In this document: one piece after another, positions 7,704 through 46,814 of the stretch | Position numbering within the stretch: position 1 is the first letter of the stretch | How the letters are laid out: each line of letters begins with the position of its first letter | Source: a bacterium (Candidatus Blackallbacteria) CG13_big_fil_rev_8_21_14_2_50_49_14 | GTDB taxonomy: Bacteria; Cyanobacteriota; Sericytochromatia; UBA7694 | Assembly: GCA_002783405.1 (NCBI GenBank) | Contig: PFGG01000072.1 | Span: 1-64,000 of the forward strand | Direction of reading: 5' to 3' | DNA: 64,000 nucleotides | Position numbers and translations under genes: made by a program | Notes under the pieces: model-generated | What the model saw: only the letters and a program-made list of their open reading frames with translations | What the model was told of the DNA's origin: nothing | Database searches by the model: none

Positions 7704-8873
7704 ATGTCTCAATTTAAAGGCGCTGATTTTTATCAGCTGGATGACCTGCTTACTGAAGAAGAAATTATGGTCCGCAATACCGTGCGGGATTTTGTTGAAG
7801 AAAAGTTTTTACCTCTGGTCACAGAGCATTACCGCAATGGAACCTTTCCCCATGAAATCGTTCCTCAACTCGGCGAATTGGGCCTCTTGGGCCCTAGCAT
7901 TGAAGGCTATGGCTGTGCTGGCCTGAATTCTATTGCCTATGGCTTGATTTGCCAGGAACTCGAACGCGGAGACAGCGGTCTTCGCAGTTTTGCCTCGGTG
8001 CAAAGCTCGTTGGTAATGTATCCGATTTACGCCTACGGCACTGAAGAACAAAAACAGAAATGGCTGCCCCAATTGGCAAAAGGCACTAAAATTGGATGTT
8101 TTGGCCTGACCGAGCCCGATTATGGCTCAAACCCCGGTGGCATGATCACCCGTGCCAGAAAAAAAGGCGATACCTATGTGCTGAACGGCGCTAAAATGTG
8201 GATCACCAATGGCTCTGTCGCTGATATTGCTGTGGTTTGGGCCAAAGATGACGAAGATGAAATCAGAGGCTTTCTGGTTGAACGCGGCACACCAGGCTTT
8301 AAGGCCATTGATATTGAAGGAAAATTTTCGCTGCGGGCTTCAGTCACCTCAGAACTGGTACTTGAGAATTGTGAAATTCCGGCTGAAAATATGCTTCCCA
8401 AAGCCTCTGGACTGAAAGGGCCGCTCGGATGCTTGAGCCAGGCCCGCTATGGGATTGCCTGGGGCGCGCTGGGCGCAGCCATGGCCTGTTATGACACCGC
8501 CCTTGACTATTCCAAAAATAGAATCCAGTTTGATAAACCGATTGCGGGCTTTCAATTGGTTCAACAGAAACTGGTGGGAATGATCACCGAAATCACCAAA
8601 GGCCAACTCTTGGCCTGGAGACTGGGTCAATTAAAGGATCAAGGAAAAATCCGCCACCCCCAAATTTCAATGGCGAAAATGAACAATGTGAAAATCGCAT
8701 TGGATATTTCACGGGTCGCACGTGATATTCTCGGAGCGAATGGCATCGCCGATGAATATCCCATTATGCGTCATATGGGCAATTTAGAATCTGTCTATAC
8801 CTATGAAGGAACCCATGATATTCATTGCCTGACCATTGGTCGGGATATTACAGGCATAGCCGCTTTTAACTGA
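7704..8873 (+). CDS. gcdH: Glutaryl-CoA dehydrogenase (acyl-CoA dehydrogenase family)
   Basis: A 389-residue FAD enzyme, full length for the family. It oxidises and normally decarboxylates glutaryl-CoA to crotonyl-CoA in lysine/tryptophan degradation. Visible signatures are RSFASVQSSLVM (94-105) with the substrate-carboxylate residues Arg94 and Ser98, GCFGLTEPDYGSNP (131-144), KFSLRAS (207-213) and TYEGTHDIH (366-374) with catalytic Glu368. These match vertebrate GCDH far better than other acyl-CoA dehydrogenases. The ATG at 7704 is chosen because AAGGA (7688-7692) is 11 nt upstream; an ATG at 7692 would overlap that site. The gene is monocistronic with its own terminator. No other lysine-degradation gene is in the window. 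Confidence 0.93.
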   Translation: MSQFKGADFYQLDDLLTEEEIMVRNTVRDFVEEKFLPLVTEHYRNGTFPHEIVPQLGELGLLGPSIEGYGCAGLNSIAYGLICQELERGDSGLRSFASVQSSLVMYPIYAYGTEEQKQKWLPQLAKGTKIGCFGLTEPDYGSNPGGMITRARKKGDTYVLNGAKMWITNGSVADIAVVWAKDDEDEIRGFLVERGTPGFKAIDIEGKFSLRASVTSELVLENCEIPAENMLPKASGLKGPLGCLSQARYGIAWGALGAAMACYDTALDYSKNRIQFDKPIAGFQLVQQKLVGMITEITKGQLLAWRLGQLKDQGKIRHPQISMAKMNNVKIALDISRVARDILGANGIADEYPIMRHMGNLESVYTYEGTHDIHCLTIGRDITGIAAFN

Positions 8874-8922
8874 TCAAACTAAGCTTCAATTTTCACAGGT
8901 TTAAACCGTGAAACGAATCTGA

Positions 8923-8954
8923 AATACAGCCAAGAATTTTTGGCTGTATTTTTA
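8923..8954 (+). terminator. Intrinsic terminator after gcdH
   Basis: An 11-bp stem AATACAGCCAA/TTGGCTGTATT (8923-8933 with 8940-8950), a 6-nt loop and a following T-tract. Confidence 0.8.
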
Positions 8955-9055
8955 TTGTAGGAAAATTCTTAATCCACTCATAGAAACCGTCTGATACGCC
9001 TTGCTAAGAGAAACTCATAAAATGAAGCCAGTATCACTTTGCAAAGGGCGTATGC

Positions 9056-9300
9056 ATGCAGATCAACTATTCCTTATCAGAAGATATCTATATCCTCGAA
9101 GTAGCAGGGAGTTTAACGGGCTACAAAATAGTTATTTCTATTTGGCAGGACTTCAGCATGAACCCCTGCTCATGTTTGAAATTTCACACATGGATCGCTT
9201 GTTTAAGACCTTCCAGAATGTCGAAGCCGCCTATGCCTGTCTTCACCAGATCTTAAAAAACAAACAAGCCTTAAAAGGCTGGGAACCCCTAAGTGCCTGA
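9056..9300 (+). pseudogene. Broken STAS-domain gene (anti-sigma factor antagonist type)
   Basis: Reading from the ATG at 9056 (AAAGGG 7 nt upstream) gives MQINYSLSEDIYILEVAGSLTGY, a typical STAS-domain N-terminus, until about 9124. The continuation in that frame is nonsense. In the frame one base earlier, from about 9133, the sequence reads FYLAGLQHEPLLMFEISHMDRLF and on to KALKG-like helix, a typical STAS C-terminal half (last strand and helix). The central part, including the DSSG phosphorylation motif, is absent. A deletion of roughly 30-40 codons combined with a frameshift explains this. A 99-residue ORF (9001-9300) covers only the second half in frame. Confidence 0.7.
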
Positions 9301-9376
9301 AATTGATTAAAACTGATTGACAGTCAGTACAGGCTAAAGGCATCATACATCCAGCAAGGATTGAGGAGTTTTATTG

Positions 9377-10114
9377 ATGTACAAAGCGCTGAAAACTGGC
9401 TTCCTGGCACTTGGCTGTTTTATTGCAGTTCTGAGCTTACAGGCTCAAGCCCCCTACCGTACCCAACCCCAGCAGGAACAAAGCCATGGAGAGATAGATC
9501 CTGCACTGCTGATACCTGCCAAAGAGGCCTATGAAATGCAAAAGAAAAATCTGGCAGTATTTGTCGATGTGCGCAGCCGCTTTGAATACAATGCTGAACA
9601 TATTCAAAATGCAATTTCTTTTCCCTATAAAGATATTTCCATGACCAACCAGTTTCCCTTTCCCAAAGACAAAAGCCTGGTCATGTATTGCGGCTGCCCC
9701 CATCACCTCTCGGGAATGAGTGCAGAAATTCTCAAAAAACAAGGCTATAGCCAGGTCAAAGTGATCAATGAAGGCTATTGGGGCTGGAAACAAATGGGAT
9801 TACCAATTGTTCAAGGCCCCCCTGAAGCTTTAAAGAGAATCTCACAAACCATTGAAGGCCAGTTAACTGACGCACAAAATCATCCCCTTGCCTACCACGA
9901 TGTCTTTGTTGAGCATTTGCCTACCGGTCAGCTAGAAGCTGCCCGAACCAACTCTCAGGGGCATTTTCAGATGCACTTGCATTTTGCCTCAGTCCTGCCA
10001 GAAGAACAACTGGCAATCGGGCTGAAAGATATCCGCCTGACACGCCTGACACTTAAAGAGCTTGAGAAACCCTTGAAATTAAGCCTGCCTTTAAAAACAG
10101 CGCAAGCGCAGTAA
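9377..10114 (+). CDS. Secreted rhodanese-domain protein with C-terminal carboxypeptidase-regulatory-like domain
   Basis: A 245-residue protein from the ATG at 9377 (TTGAGGAG upstream with 8-nt spacing). The signal peptide ends near AQA (22-25). Residues ~45-140 are a rhodanese domain: FVDVRSRFEYNAEHIQNAISFPY (62-84), then the active-site loop YCGCPHHLSG with probable catalytic Cys105, and the closing GYWGWKQMGLPI. Rhodaneses transfer sulfane sulfur or bind thiol-linked ligands. Residues ~150-245 (TIEGQLTDAQNHPLAYHDVFVEH) look like a transthyretin-like/carboxypeptidase-regulatory beta domain. The unusual Cys-Gly-Cys loop leaves the catalytic role open. Monocistronic; periplasmic location inferred. 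Confidence 0.82.
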   Translation: MYKALKTGFLALGCFIAVLSLQAQAPYRTQPQQEQSHGEIDPALLIPAKEAYEMQKKNLAVFVDVRSRFEYNAEHIQNAISFPYKDISMTNQFPFPKDKSLVMYCGCPHHLSGMSAEILKKQGYSQVKVINEGYWGWKQMGLPIVQGPPEALKRISQTIEGQLTDAQNHPLAYHDVFVEHLPTGQLEAARTNSQGHFQMHLHFASVLPEEQLAIGLKDIRLTRLTLKELEKPLKLSLPLKTAQAQ

Positions 10115-41058: not shown

Positions 41059-42378
41059 TCAAAGACGCCGCGAACGAACAGCCTGAACAAAGGTTTCCCA
41101 GTCAGAGGAAACCAAGCCAGCATATTGATCAGACCAAGCAGGTAAAAGCGGCAACCAGGTCTTACTTTCAGCCAGTATGCGAGCGGCTTGGCCGCTTCGG
41201 GCATGCGCTCTGGCCCCAATCAAGGCCACACTGTCCAAAAAGTCTTGAAACTCTTTATTCTTGTTCAGTTTTTCGAGATTGACGGTTTCTTTGGGCAGCA
41301 ATTCTCGGACATAAACACTGAGATTGTGTACTTTGCTGACCCCTAAGAAGGGATCCGCCTCAGGTAAGAAATAGCGAAAAGCCTGAAGAATGCGAGCGGA
41401 CTGATCTCCCCGAGAAACAGCAAAGGCCTCAGTAGAAGGCGAAGCCGCTTCCTTAAACTCAAGAATAATATCATCTTGGGGACTGGCAGAAGCACCTTCA
41501 ACCAAAACAATATAGCGGTAACGCCCAAGGCTGCCCTTGCCAGCGACCCGTGCAGCCGCATCTTTCAAACGAAAAAATGCTGCGCCCTCACGGCGTGTTC
41601 GCGCATAGAGCGTGAGCGCAGCTGCCACTTCCTGCTGAATCGCTGGAGAAATGGGCAAGATTTTGTCTGAGGGAATAAAACGTCCGGCACGCGTCATTTC
41701 ACTCAAATATTCAGCGCGGTTGAAATTGGCGGCCTGTTCAACCTGTTTGGCCGGTTTTTCGGTCAAATACCGTTGATCCAAGGGCTGCGCCAAGAGCGCA
41801 GGTTGACGCGATAAGGCCTGCAAATGAAACAAATAGCGTTCAAGAAAAAAGCCAACCAAGGCTTCGCGCTCTGAACCTTTAAAGCCATTTTCATCAGCAG
41901 CGAGTTGAATACTGACAGCCTGGCGGGCCAATTCCCAGGTATAGGGTGCCTGAGTAGCCTCATCAAAATCATTTAAATCATAGGCAAAGCGGTTACGGGA
42001 GGTTTTATAGGTTCCCATATTTTCGAGATGAAAATCACCTTGAATCCAAATCCGGGTTGGACTGGCCAAAGCGGTTTCCCGCGCCATATCATAATCAAAT
42101 AGAAAAGCGGTTGCTCTGTAAAAGGCAAAGGGTGATTCTGACATGGCCTCATATTTCAAACGAACCCATTCAGGAGCGCGTTTCTGCAATTCCAGATGGT
42201 ATTTTTGAATAAGCGGCAAGGGATCACGTGTCATGGTACTGCGCAGTTTGGTTTTAGAGGCTGTCTGATAAATGGCTCTAGGGCTCTGCTGAAATCGGGC
42301 AGAGAGGTCTGAAAAAGTACTCTGACAAGCATTCAAGGTTGCCAAAGCTGAGAGTACGAATAAACTGCGTAGTTTCAT
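41059..42378 (-). CDS. DUF2252-family lipoprotein
   Basis: A 439-residue protein from the ATG at 42378. The signal peptide ends in lipobox LNAC. The mature protein is a DUF2252 domain: TRDPLPLIQKYH, FYRATAFLFDYDMA, IWIQGDFHLENMGTY, FAYDLNDFDEATQAPYTWELARQAVSI. This family resembles kinase/phosphotransferase folds (GD-x-HxxN and DxND-like motifs) but its activity is unproven, and a lipid-anchored envelope form would have no ATP supply. In-frame TTG starts at 42384 and 42393 are possible, with AGGGG nearer to them. It lies between the M14 carboxypeptidase gene upstream and cysQ downstream on the same strand. Confidence 0.85.
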   Translation of the reverse strand: MKLRSLFVLSALATLNACQSTFSDLSARFQQSPRAIYQTASKTKLRSTMTRDPLPLIQKYHLELQKRAPEWVRLKYEAMSESPFAFYRATAFLFDYDMARETALASPTRIWIQGDFHLENMGTYKTSRNRFAYDLNDFDEATQAPYTWELARQAVSIQLAADENGFKGSEREALVGFFLERYLFHLQALSRQPALLAQPLDQRYLTEKPAKQVEQAANFNRAEYLSEMTRAGRFIPSDKILPISPAIQQEVAAALTLYARTRREGAAFFRLKDAAARVAGKGSLGRYRYIVLVEGASASPQDDIILEFKEAASPSTEAFAVSRGDQSARILQAFRYFLPEADPFLGVSKVHNLSVYVRELLPKETVNLEKLNKNKEFQDFLDSVALIGARAHARSGQAARILAESKTWLPLLPAWSDQYAGLVSSDWETFVQAVRSRRL

Positions 42379-42455
42379 TTTCAAAATTCTCAAACCCCTT
42401 TTATATTCTTTAATTATAAGCCAGAAACTGGTTATTTTTCAAAACAGAGCGTGAA

Positions 42456-43703
42456 TTACTGAAATTCACCGCCAGCCTCAATTAAACGCAGGAAAGTAGG
42501 ACGCAGGCTCACCCAGATCCGCTCCATTTCAGAAAAGCTGGGCCGGAAAGTCTGCCCCACTTCAAGGGTCATTGAAAGCGCGCCATGCTTGCCATAGGCA
42601 TAATCACGGGTCGTAGCCGTCGTGGGATACAAAATCTGCGTGCTGGTTCCACCTTTAAAGCCCAGGTTTTTAACAGTTTCCTGGTAAAGCTTTTTGAAGA
42701 TTGGGGTATGGGGAACATCCTCAGCACTGTATCCAAAAGGCCAAAGCATCATTTCACCATAGGCATGAATATCTGCGAAAATAGCAGGTTTTTTACGCGC
42801 CATCATGGCCTGAACCACCTGGGTTTCAGGCTCTGAGGCAGGGGCTGCACCACTGTAAATTTCACCATTGGGATCTGACAAACCACGTTTCCAGCTGTCG
42901 GGCACATTCAACCCCTGATAATTCCAGTGGTTATCAAAATTACGATTCAGGTCGATCCCGGTTCCATGGGTATTTTTGCGCTGCCAGGAATCCCCTTTTT
43001 CAACTTCAACACGTCCATCCACGTTGACCATGGGCAGAATAAACACTTCATGGGTATTCAACAATTCAGTAATTTTGGGGTCTTTGCCGTACTCGGAAGT
43101 TAAAAGATCCATGAGTTTCATCAGCAATTCTACGGGGGCCAATTCGCGCGCATGCACGCCCCCTGTAAACATCGTGACGGGTTTGGGGGCCCGGTTTTGA
43201 CGATTGGTGAGCGTTACTGCCCAAATATCATGATCAGATTTTCCTTGGGTTTTCTCCCAGGTATCTCCTGCATCTTCCAATTGCACCAATTGTGGATATT
43301 TTGCAGCCAATTCCTGTAATTGCTGACGCATTTGGGCATAGGTCCGGTAGCCACTGGGAAGCGGTTGACGCCCTTCCCCCATACTGCGCTCCATGCTGGC
43401 TTCATAGCGCACCTGACGCTGATTCAATTCAAGCATTTGTGCAGGGGTAATCCGCGCCAAAGCTGTTTTTTGCGCAGTTTCAATGCCAAAGAGATCCAAA
43501 CCTGCACCTGCGAGTTCAGCCAGTTCAGCGGGGCTACGCCAAAAAAGTCTGACCACACGGGGCTGACTGGATGCTGCCGCTTGAAAACGCGCCGGGGAAG
43601 AGCTATTGAGGGCTGAACTGAGATTTAAGGGGGCGCTACATGCGCTCAGAGAAAGGATTGCTGCCAAGGGCAAATGCCAAAGTTTGAGCTTGGAAAGGTG
43701 CAT
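42456..43703 (-). CDS. M14-family zinc carboxypeptidase, lipoprotein
   Basis: A 415-residue protein from the ATG at 43703 (GAGG 7 nt upstream; a TTG at 43715 is less likely). Lipobox LSAC with Cys22. Residues ~120-415 are a peptidase M14 domain: GGVHARELAP gives zinc ligands His184 and Glu187, substrate-binding Arg/Asn in IDLNRNFDNHW, FADIHAYGE gives His313, and SMTLEVG gives catalytic Glu381. It removes C-terminal residues from peptides in the periplasm or at the cell surface. N-terminal residues 40-115 are Ala/Gln/Arg-rich and may be a propeptide. The next gene downstream (DUF2252 lipoprotein) follows after 77 nt. Confidence 0.9.
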   Translation of the reverse strand: MHLSKLKLWHLPLAAILSLSACSAPLNLSSALNSSSPARFQAAASSQPRVVRLFWRSPAELAELAGAGLDLFGIETAQKTALARITPAQMLELNQRQVRYEASMERSMGEGRQPLPSGYRTYAQMRQQLQELAAKYPQLVQLEDAGDTWEKTQGKSDHDIWAVTLTNRQNRAPKPVTMFTGGVHARELAPVELLMKLMDLLTSEYGKDPKITELLNTHEVFILPMVNVDGRVEVEKGDSWQRKNTHGTGIDLNRNFDNHWNYQGLNVPDSWKRGLSDPNGEIYSGAAPASEPETQVVQAMMARKKPAIFADIHAYGEMMLWPFGYSAEDVPHTPIFKKLYQETVKNLGFKGGTSTQILYPTTATTRDYAYGKHGALSMTLEVGQTFRPSFSEMERIWVSLRPTFLRLIEAGGEFQ

Positions 43704-43835
43704 GGATAACCTCAAAGGGATTTAAATTAACCAGATTATAACATATTTTTTACTTTTTCGTTCTGCTTTTTTTTGAAATAATCTTGAAAATTTTCAGCCT
43801 TGTCAGTGGCTTTTCATGCCCTTGGCAAATTCAAT

Positions 43836-44490: not shown

Positions 44491-45273
44491 TCATCTATCA
44501 TTGATAAGCATACGCAACTCGTGCTCTGCTGAGACCTTGAGAATTCCCCGTTTAATCAAATAGTTTCCCCAATCCTTTAAAGCGGCAGCTCCCAATTGGG
44601 GATCAGAAGTTTCATTTAAGACCTCAGCCACAATTTCTTCCCAGGCACTTTTTCCATTGCATCTTTTCAAACATTCAGCCACGTCTGAGGGCAGGGCTTC
44701 CAAACGGGAACCCGCCATATCGCGTATCAAGAGGTAATCCTGCAAGGGCAGTTCCGAACATGCCGGAAGGGGCTGGCCCAAACGCAGCCATTCCAGGATG
44801 TCGATAAAAAAGGGCCCCCCAGATATCAAACAGACCCAATCACTGAGGAGGGGCTGAAATTCTGCGGGAAAAAGAGGTGGCAAACGGTAAAACACCCGCT
44901 GCAAGAGTGCAATTTCAAAATTCAGAACCTGCGAAAGATGGGGAATGAGAAGCCCTTCCTGCTGAATCTGCTCATTTAATTGCAAGAGCAAAGCCAAGCT
45001 GAAGGAAGGCCCCAAACTGTGGGCAATCACTGTTCGCGGCATTTGCAGCAAGAGTTCCTCAAGGTATTCAGGGCCCAATAGGTTTACAATTCTGACAGGG
45101 ATATGGGATCTCAGTTTCTGCTGAAGCGAGAAACGTGCACTTTGCAACCAGAGCTCACGCTCGGAAGGCACACAGGCCGGTAAATGACTGACGGAAGCGG
45201 TGGGCAAGTCTGTCATACGGGTTTCGATAAACCATTCCTCCCAGACCTGTTCCCAAGCACTCAAACCATTCAT
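44491..45273 (-). CDS. Putative partner of the DUF692-like protein (DUF2063/MbnC-like), tentative
   Basis: A 260-residue protein from the ATG at 45273, which overlaps the upstream stop as ATGA; AAGGAG stands 8 nt before it. Residues ~45-130 read LQQKLRSHIPVRIVNLLGPEYLEELLLQMPRTV... then PHLSQVLNFEIALLQRVF. This resembles the DUF2063/HvfC and MbnC partners of DUF692 enzymes (helix, 'LLG-x-E', a hydrophobic stretch, PHL, LxFE-A). A C-terminal winged-helix-like part (~200-255, CNGKSAWEEIVAEVL, NYLIKRGIL) follows. Partner status is supported by the overlapping gene order but not proven by sequence. Confidence 0.5.
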   Translation of the reverse strand: MNGLSAWEQVWEEWFIETRMTDLPTASVSHLPACVPSERELWLQSARFSLQQKLRSHIPVRIVNLLGPEYLEELLLQMPRTVIAHSLGPSFSLALLLQLNEQIQQEGLLIPHLSQVLNFEIALLQRVFYRLPPLFPAEFQPLLSDWVCLISGGPFFIDILEWLRLGQPLPACSELPLQDYLLIRDMAGSRLEALPSDVAECLKRCNGKSAWEEIVAEVLNETSDPQLGAAALKDWGNYLIKRGILKVSAEHELRMLINDR

Positions 45274-46622
45274 GAGCGAGACTCCTTCAGCCATCTTCGC
45301 GCCTGATCCAAAGGCGTATTCAAACCCTGCTCCAAGGGATCTGCGTCAATGAGCAGTGCTTTTATTTGGGTTTGCGCCAAAATCTGACGTGCCAAGCGCC
45401 AGGCTTCAGCATAATGCGGATGCGAAAAACTGCCAGGTAATTTCAATGAAACGACCCGTTCTGCGGTAATCGGTCTGAGCCACTCCCCGGGTGAAAAACC
45501 CTGTTGCACTGCCGACTCACACAGCACGCCGAGATCTAAAGACACGCCACAATCACAGCTTTCTGCCAAGCGAGTCATTAATTCACTTTCAGCCAAACCC
45601 AAAGAAAAAGAAACCAAACTGTTCTCAAGCACCATGGGCACTGGCAGACAAGAACGCAATTCCAGAATTTTCTGAAGCACATCTTCCCAAACACTTTGAC
45701 CAGGAGGCAAAGGCAGACTGATACCGGCCTGATAACTCCAAAGCGCCAGAGGAAGCACCCACCAGGGGCTCTGGCAACGCTCCAAAAGTCGCAGCAGATC
45801 AGGTATGGCACTCTGCAAAGGTGCACCCAAACCCGAAACACGAATCAGACAGGGGTGCTGGTGGCATATCCGCAGAAGATTTTGGTCTTCAGCGGGCTCC
45901 AACCAATATTCAAACTCCAATTCAAAATAATCGGCCTTTTGAATCAGCAAAGAATCTCTGGTTTCTTCCTTCCAGAGCATTCCTGCCCCCAAAACTGGCA
46001 AATCCTTTAAATCAAAAGCGGCGGATTTGGAACGTGGCTTGCGCGCAATAATCTGGCTGATATGGTGACGTTCTACCCCTTCTGAAGCATGGGCTTCAGC
46101 CACCCAGCCTTCAAAATAAAACAAAATATCCCAACCCTGCATTCTTTCATACAGTTCTCCCAACTGCAAAACCCCTGTGGGGCGCTGGTCGAGACGGTTG
46201 ATCGAGGTCGCCCATCTTTCTTCAGCAGACGGATCCTGCTCTGTAAACCCAGAAAGAACAAGCAGCCCCCCAGGTTTGATCGCAGCTTTAAAACGCCCAA
46301 TTAAGCGGGCCCGCTCACCATGCGGAATATAGGGAAAAACATTTAAACAAAAGATCGCTGCCTGACTTTCTCGATTGAGTCGGTGGCTGCGAATGTCTTC
46401 ATGGAGCCACAGAGCTTGTTCTCCATAGCGTTTGCGTGCAGACTGAATGGCCTCTGCATCCACATCCAAGGCTGTTACTGGCAGTCCCCAGGCAGCCATC
46501 GCGGCTCCGAAATGCCCCATACCACAACCAATATCCACAACAGGGCCTGCAGGAATCCAGGGCAAAAGTGCGAGCAGATCTTCGAGATGAAGCTGTCGAG
46601 TAGAAAGAGAATTGGCTTTCAT
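45270..46622 (-). CDS. SAM-dependent methyltransferase fused to a DUF692-like (MNIO) barrel domain
   Basis: A 450-residue protein. Residues 1-195 are a class I methyltransferase (motif I VVDIGCGMG 28-36, acidic loop ALDVD 51-55, post-motif IKPGGLLVLSG). Residues ~208-445 look like DUF692, the multinuclear iron oxidase family of MbnB and TglH: LGAGMLW start, DYFELEFEYW (231-240), VPMVLENSLVSFSLG (328-342, cf. LLENPSS), CDCGVSLDLGVL (356-367, cf. CGLLLDVNN) and ALLIDAD. The family histidines in HGVGLS, SEHL and HLAGH positions appear replaced (Arg261, Leu, Lys394), so metal binding is doubtful. The barrel assignment is tentative; the methyltransferase is secure. Transcribed 48 nt downstream of tRNA-Cys. 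Confidence 0.68.
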   Translation of the reverse strand: MKANSLSTRQLHLEDLLALLPWIPAGPVVDIGCGMGHFGAAMAAWGLPVTALDVDAEAIQSARKRYGEQALWLHEDIRSHRLNRESQAAIFCLNVFPYIPHGERARLIGRFKAAIKPGGLLVLSGFTEQDPSAEERWATSINRLDQRPTGVLQLGELYERMQGWDILFYFEGWVAEAHASEGVERHHISQIIARKPRSKSAAFDLKDLPVLGAGMLWKEETRDSLLIQKADYFELEFEYWLEPAEDQNLLRICHQHPCLIRVSGLGAPLQSAIPDLLRLLERCQSPWWVLPLALWSYQAGISLPLPPGQSVWEDVLQKILELRSCLPVPMVLENSLVSFSLGLAESELMTRLAESCDCGVSLDLGVLCESAVQQGFSPGEWLRPITAERVVSLKLPGSFSHPHYAEAWRLARQILAQTQIKALLIDADPLEQGLNTPLDQARRWLKESRS

Positions 46623-46669
46623 AGCCTCATTTTAGCAAAGCAAAGTGGAAATAAGGGGCAAAAAAGAAA

Positions 46670-46741
46670 AGGCGACGGCCGGAATCGAACCGGCGAGTAG
46701 AGCTTTTGCAGAGCTCGGCCTTACCACTTGGCGACGTCGCC
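46670..46741 (-). tRNA. trnC: tRNA-Cys (anticodon GCA)
   Basis: 72 nt on the minus strand. Acceptor GGCGACG/CGTCGCC, D-arm AAGTGGTAAGG, anticodon stem GAGCT/AGCTC with loop CTGCAAA, T-arm GGTTCGATTCC, discriminator U typical of tRNA-Cys. CCA is not encoded. No terminator is visible before the methyltransferase gene, so read-through is possible. Confidence 0.96.
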
Positions 46742-46814
46742 TTAAATCTTGACCCACTTTAACATAAGCGACCATGAAAAAACAATATGAAGCAAATTCT
46801 CAGCGATACAAGCA

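Follow-up and report, generated by a model that had tools for sequence, protein, structure and literature searches.

A methyltransferase–MNIO fusion with a degraded iron site and an intact paralogue in one Sericytochromatia family

Unusual peptide chemistry continues to emerge from the MNIO (DUF692) enzymes, whose characterised members rely on a multi-iron site that is conserved. The 64,000-nucleotide stretch of bacterial DNA analysed here (the window) encodes a 450-residue protein in which a methyltransferase is fused to an MNIO barrel that has lost most of this site. What might such a protein do, and on which substrate would it act? The fusion gene and the partner gene that follows it, together referred to as locus A, are present in all five genomes of one Sericytochromatia family (G000–G004, with the window in G000), which represent four genera. 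The features of the locus in the window are as follows.

46669..46742, minus strand: tRNA-Cys(GCA), directly upstream of the fusion gene and on the same strand; linkage seen in four genomes
45270..46622, minus strand: methyltransferase–MNIO fusion gene, 450 residues (ORF, Pfam; AlphaFold2 pLDDT 88.7, pTM 0.88)
46029..46622, minus strand: class I SAM methyltransferase domain, residues about 1–198 (PF13649, 8.8e-14; fold neighbours TehB, Slr1183 and RPA2492)
46515..46535, minus strand: SAM-binding motif DIGCGMG, residues 30–36 (sequence)
45273..46010, minus strand: degenerate MNIO (DUF692) barrel domain, residues about 205–450 (PF05114, 45.8 bits; two of nine iron ligands)
45840..45842, minus strand: codon 261, Arg replacing the first iron-ligand His (alignment)
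45441..45443, minus strand: codon 394, Lys replacing the ligand His of the xHLAG motif (alignment)
45426..45431, minus strand: deletion site of the DTH ligand segment that is present in intact MNIOs (alignment)
44491..45273, minus strand: partner protein, 260 residues, PME-type-2-like (TglI/HvfC-like), overlapping the fusion gene by ATGA
44533..44853, minus strand: predicted RRE-like C-terminal domain of the partner, residues about 141–247 (strand/helix order of the model; TbiB1 fold matches)

Domain structure and surroundings of locus A

The N-terminal half of the fusion is a class I SAM methyltransferase, with a Rossmann-type domain and a GxGxG motif (DIGCGMG). Residues 27–118 match Methyltransf_25 (PF13649, E = 8.8e-14). 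The motif glycines G32, G34 and G36 are invariant in the four full-length locus A proteins, and the N-terminal fragment from G003 carries GCGDG. The closest methyltransferase folds in a PDB fold search are of generic small-molecule types, and profile and fold searches revealed no diagnostic kinship to any known peptide methyltransferase.

By sequence, the C-terminal half is a homologue of the MNIO family: residues 212–427 match PF05114 (MbnB_TglH_ChrH; E = 5.9e-12, 45.8 bits against a Pfam cut-off of 25 bits), and the match spans positions 2–242 of the 263-position profile. An AlphaFold2 model (mean pLDDT 88.7), computed from an input alignment of 17 sequences drawn from the window and related loci, contains eight alternating strand/helix units between residues 212 and 447. 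When the whole fusion was compared with the PDB, the 50 best fold matches were almost throughout methyltransferase-containing entries and included no MNIO, so the identity of the barrel rests on the Pfam match, the alignment and the order of strands and helices. The known MNIOs BufB, HvfB, TglH, MbnB, ApyH and PbsC are homologous to this domain, and the same kind of barrel is predicted for it. The fusion differs from them in its N-terminal methyltransferase and, for the window copy, in having two of the nine iron ligands.

The partner ORF begins at 45273 and encodes 260 residues. An alternative start is present 7 codons upstream (267 residues); homologues start at the 45273 Met. Neither Pfam nor NCBIfam gave a significant match for the partner, and its profile found none among PDB sequences; it was identified by profile–profile and fold comparison. 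Its alignment (nine relatives) matches the standalone cyanobacterial MNIO partners (hhalign 96.7%, E = 4.4e-10) and, over 226 columns or nearly the full length, the DUF2063-type partners of the same bacteria (93.9%, E = 1.6e-7). For the AlphaFold2 model of the partner (pLDDT 81), the top PDB match is TglI of the TglHI complex (E = 1.1e-4, probability 1.00). The RRE protein TbiB1 with its bound leader peptide is found lower among the fold matches, at probabilities of 0.4–0.9 and E-values above 0.5, and the model suggests that the C-terminal domain is RRE-like. Sequence and model thus identify a PME-type-2-like MNIO partner in the terms of PMC12452194, one that comes after the MNIO gene, lacks the DUF2063 Pfam signature and has a predicted fold of the NGO1945/TglI type. 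As outlined in the text of that survey, PME-type 2 proteins (TglI and others) likewise stand behind an MNIO gene, have no DUF2063 Pfam match and possess an RRE-like C-terminus; the locus A partner differs in its overlapping start codon and in being paired with an MNIO that lacks the iron site (PMC12452194).

These results bear out a sequence-only reading of the window, which had proposed the methyltransferase–DUF692 fusion, the ATGA-overlapping partner and its resemblance to the partners of DUF692 enzymes, and had suggested the comparison of the barrel by AlphaFold. That reading had also seen no precursor peptide beside the two genes, and the same picture holds for the family: around locus A of the five genomes, Cys-repeat scans, protein and motif searches and an all-against-all comparison of small ORFs revealed neither a conserved small ORF nor one with a Cys repeat. 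Most matches in the all-against-all comparison were due to tRNA genes or to known genes read in another strand or frame, and a TPR gene adjoining dapF was also among the shared sequences. A small ORF common to G002 and G004 was considered as a precursor and rejected, as it lies on the opposite strand (convergent) and has no Cys repeat in the part read. Promoter and terminator scans gave nothing exceeding chance.

Downstream of locus A, the window encodes an M14 zinc carboxypeptidase and a DUF2252 protein (41059–43715). Both recur downstream of the G001 locus A; there, Rrf2 and DoxX genes take the place of the FMN reductase gene.

A target outside RiPP biosynthesis, either a small molecule or a macromolecule such as tRNA, would accord with the lack of a nearby precursor, with the generic small-molecule type of the closest methyltransferase folds and with the tRNA-Cys gene, which lies 28–78 nt upstream of locus A on the same strand in G000, G001, G002 and G003; the barrel and the partner would then be remnants. 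We consider this unlikely, since a partner with an RRE-like domain directly follows the fusion gene in five of five genomes, as would fit a peptide substrate, and the tRNA-Cys linkage may be just inherited gene order.

Loss of the iron site

Nine iron ligands have been predicted for PbsC: His97, Asp133, Glu178, Asp213, His216, His247, Asp260, His262 and Glu290 (PMC12257519). Motifs were used to locate these ligands in the alignment, where the fifth position is occupied by Asn in the compared proteins (N175 of HvfB). The nine positions are invariant in all intact relatives examined, and the full set is found in every standalone MNIO compared and in the fusion of a paralogous locus, locus B. The window protein keeps Glu333 and Asp363. 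Its seven changed positions are Arg261, Leu290, Val366, Lys394, a deletion, Phe399 and Asp426, the last of which replaces Glu. The loss of metal-binding histidines noted in the sequence-only reading is real, and it is larger than was claimed there.

The extent of the loss varies within the family. Locus A of G001 retains the same two ligands as the window protein, and that of G002 retains none. The G004 protein has two ligands and a loosely aligned His in the gapped DTH region; the G003 protein, with four ligands and a similarly uncertain His, is intermediate. At the lost His, Asn and DTH positions, different genomes carry different replacement residues. There is no new invariant metal cluster in the locus A proteins: their 29 invariant MNIO positions include E234, D246 and E388 as the sole acidic residues, and no His. 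Any one of three point mutations in HvfB (N175A, D242A or H244A) is enough to abolish its activity (PMC13419390). Taken with the ligand loss in the alignment, this makes it unlikely that locus A acts as an iron-dependent oxidase.

The sequence-only reading had offered either altered chemistry or a repurposed scaffold, and the second fits better. Under altered chemistry, locus A would still oxidise a peptide, using another metal or a single iron held by Glu333, Asp363, Asp426 and other residues. The confident fold prediction and the retention of Glu333 and Asp363 in four of the five locus A proteins are compatible with such an enzyme, but equivalents of even these two residues are missing from G002, and the genome-specific replacements, the lack of a new invariant His/Asp/Glu cluster and the inactivity of the HvfB single mutants make it distinctly improbable. 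A repurposed scaffold is preferred because the ligand loss is graded across genera and because constraint has shifted onto the methyltransferase half, as described in the next section.

Paralogous locus B and reversed constraint

Locus B consists of a second methyltransferase–MNIO fusion and an overlapping partner, and is found in four of the five genomes (L031, L034, L037 and L038). It is like known MNIOs in keeping the iron ligands and in being followed by a partner gene. Loci A and B co-occur in G000–G003. Locus A is present in G004 without a detected locus B, in an assembly that is 73% complete. The methyltransferase–MNIO fusion is absent from the 381 other genomes of the phylum Cyanobacteriota (386 were searched, including the five of the family), and from 72,556 plasmid records and 50,697 phage records. 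In the searches made, partners of the locus A/B type are likewise confined to this one family.

The fused sequences form one group against all others, with support of 95/98 in the methyltransferase tree and 100/98 in the MNIO tree. Within this group, A is supported in both trees and B more weakly. The trees point to one fusion followed by one duplication, within one Sericytochromatia family, as the most likely history; independent fusions are a less likely origin of A and B.

Other MNIO arrangements occur in these and related bacteria. The genome of the window also contains a bufferin-type system (L032:4480-6478, G000:C25), in which a BufA2-like peptide is followed by a 581-residue fusion of an MNIO and a DUF2063 partner. 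In other cyanobacterial genomes (L009–L012), a TIGR04222-type membrane protein with a Ser/Gly/Cys-rich tail, an assignment that rests on the test of L009, precedes a standalone MNIO (mostly overlapping) and a short partner. In G004 (L042:35-2084, G004:C517), a standalone MNIO and a short partner lie downstream of a small membrane protein that resembles a shortened TIGR04222 protein and has no significant profile match.

The two loci are constrained in opposite directions. For locus A, the two congeneric genomes share 74.2% identity in the methyltransferase half and 49.8% in the MNIO half (Fisher p = 2e-7), whereas the corresponding values for locus B are 51.6% and 65.7% (Fisher p = 0.003). The interaction of locus and domain has a log-odds of 1.64 (bootstrap 95% interval 1.10–2.22), and comparisons with G002 show a reversal in the same direction. 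Invariant positions follow this pattern, with 79 in the methyltransferase and 29 in the MNIO half of the four locus A proteins, versus 54 and 109 for locus B. Between genera, the MNIO half of locus A is fast-evolving (27–35% identity), and even a scaffold role of this half is weakly constrained.

Varying ligand loss and a fast-changing MNIO half could also mark a decaying duplicate without function. Stop-free open frames in every genome, together with a SAM motif and a partner kept in five of five genomes and four genera, argue against decay, as does a methyltransferase half that is 74% identical within the genus, where pN is 0.18 and pS 0.73 (synonymous sites are saturated, and the rate ratios are indicative only); we regard decay as very improbable. 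Least credible of all is the view of locus A as a regulatory or scaffold component of a hetero-oligomer with locus B, and not as a methyltransferase in its own right, for although A and B share ancestry and co-occur in G000–G003, the most conserved part of locus A is the methyltransferase with its intact SAM motif, not the barrel.

Candidate precursor peptides and a proposed two-locus pathway

The lack of a precursor at locus A would be accounted for by locus B, which is located elsewhere in the genome, retains its ligands and is accompanied by a candidate Cys-repeat precursor. Such peptides adjoin locus B in three genomes.

L031:2439-2984: candidate precursor of G000, downstream of locus B
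L034, about 8840-9441: candidate precursor of G001, leader and core in different frames
L037:5132-5569: candidate precursor of G002, divergently transcribed

The G000 peptide has 181 residues and six Cys, each within a repeat such as GIYQCSAKIEPGK. The G002 peptide (146 residues) contains four copies of an 18-residue repeat, approximately GAEIYPCSAKLPEGKPGM. The homologous region of G001 encodes a similar leader and an eight-Cys core, which a frame break places in different reading frames in the assembly. Each repeat has one Cys (YQCSAKIEPGK or YPCSAKLPEGK). By inspection, the peptides have no signal peptide, which fits the association of such precursors with PME-type-2 partners outlined in PMC12452194. 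From their sequences, they are candidate RiPP precursors.

Motif and protein searches did not find the Cys-repeat peptide in G003 or G004, and the G000 genome holds a single one, at locus B. Single motif matches in G004:C843 and G001:C50 were rejected as precursors because they are not repeat peptides. The locus B peptide was also considered as a bufferin, of the BufABC type with a BufA1 or BufA2 precursor bearing a Sec signal peptide and a DUF2063 partner; this was rejected, the G000 peptide having no Pfam or NCBIfam family match. As described in the survey text, Buf_EGKCG and oxazolin precursors likewise contain several Cys near an MNIO gene, with repeated motifs in the oxazolins, and adjamnio-I precursors, which we compared by description only, adjoin MNIO and PME-type 2 genes (PMC12452194). 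Relative to these descriptions, the locus B peptides differ in their motif (Y[QP]C[ST]AK[IL]xPxGK), in the absence of a signal peptide and in the position of their gene, which comes after the partner gene or lies on the other strand and does not immediately precede the MNIO.

We propose that a single fusion and its later duplication led to a division of labour between the two loci. Locus B, with its intact iron site, would oxidise Cys residues of the adjacent repeat peptide. The barrel of locus A would no longer be an oxidase; as a folded platform, it may pair with the TglI/RRE-like partner and present a peptide to the conserved methyltransferase domain. The most likely substrate would be the oxidised Cys-repeat peptide from locus B, on which A would act in trans, or alternatively a peptide encoded elsewhere. 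Methylation could fall on the Cys-derived group that B leaves behind, which would parallel the S-methylation in chryseobasin (PMC10214503). We infer a place for locus A in RiPP biosynthesis, and hold it slightly more probable than otherwise that A is a methyltransferase on an iron-less MNIO scaffold with a peptide-binding partner, that B is a peptide oxidase, and that the locus B peptide likely serves A in trans. In a stricter version, which is less likely than not, A is a pseudo-MNIO: its barrel and RRE partner have no role other than holding a peptide for methylation, and oxidation stays with B in a two-locus RiPP pathway.

The closest precedent is ChrHI of the chryseobasin pathway, which ties MNIO chemistry to SAM-dependent S-methylation of a Cys-derived group; the methylating protein there is not established (PMC10214503). 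ChrHI is without a predicted Rossmann methyltransferase domain, whereas the fusion described here has an explicit one; ChrI, its partner, is a membrane protein of another type, and the chryseobasin precursor motif also differs (PMC10214503). The survey of about 14,000 MNIOs reports MNIO–nitroreductase fusions as a notable case (PMC12452194). These also join an MNIO to a second enzyme, but a different one, and the survey text mentions no loss of the metal site in them; the word methyltransferase is absent from its main text (PMC12452194). In the main texts of the open-licence literature, we found no report of a methyltransferase–MNIO combination or of any MNIO whose metal site is degraded. The methyltransferase, the MNIO and the partner all belong to known families, and it is their combination that is new within this literature.

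If the stricter version is true, locus A would provide the first known MNIO pseudoenzyme, and the two loci would constitute a two-locus RiPP pathway with a new family of multi-repeat Cys precursors. Within one genome, the intact locus B offers a natural control, and the repeat peptide is a ready candidate substrate, so that oxidation and methylation can be studied independently of each other. An MNIO without its iron site, kept together with its partner across four genera, would show how this scaffold can be given a second use, in holding peptides for another enzyme.
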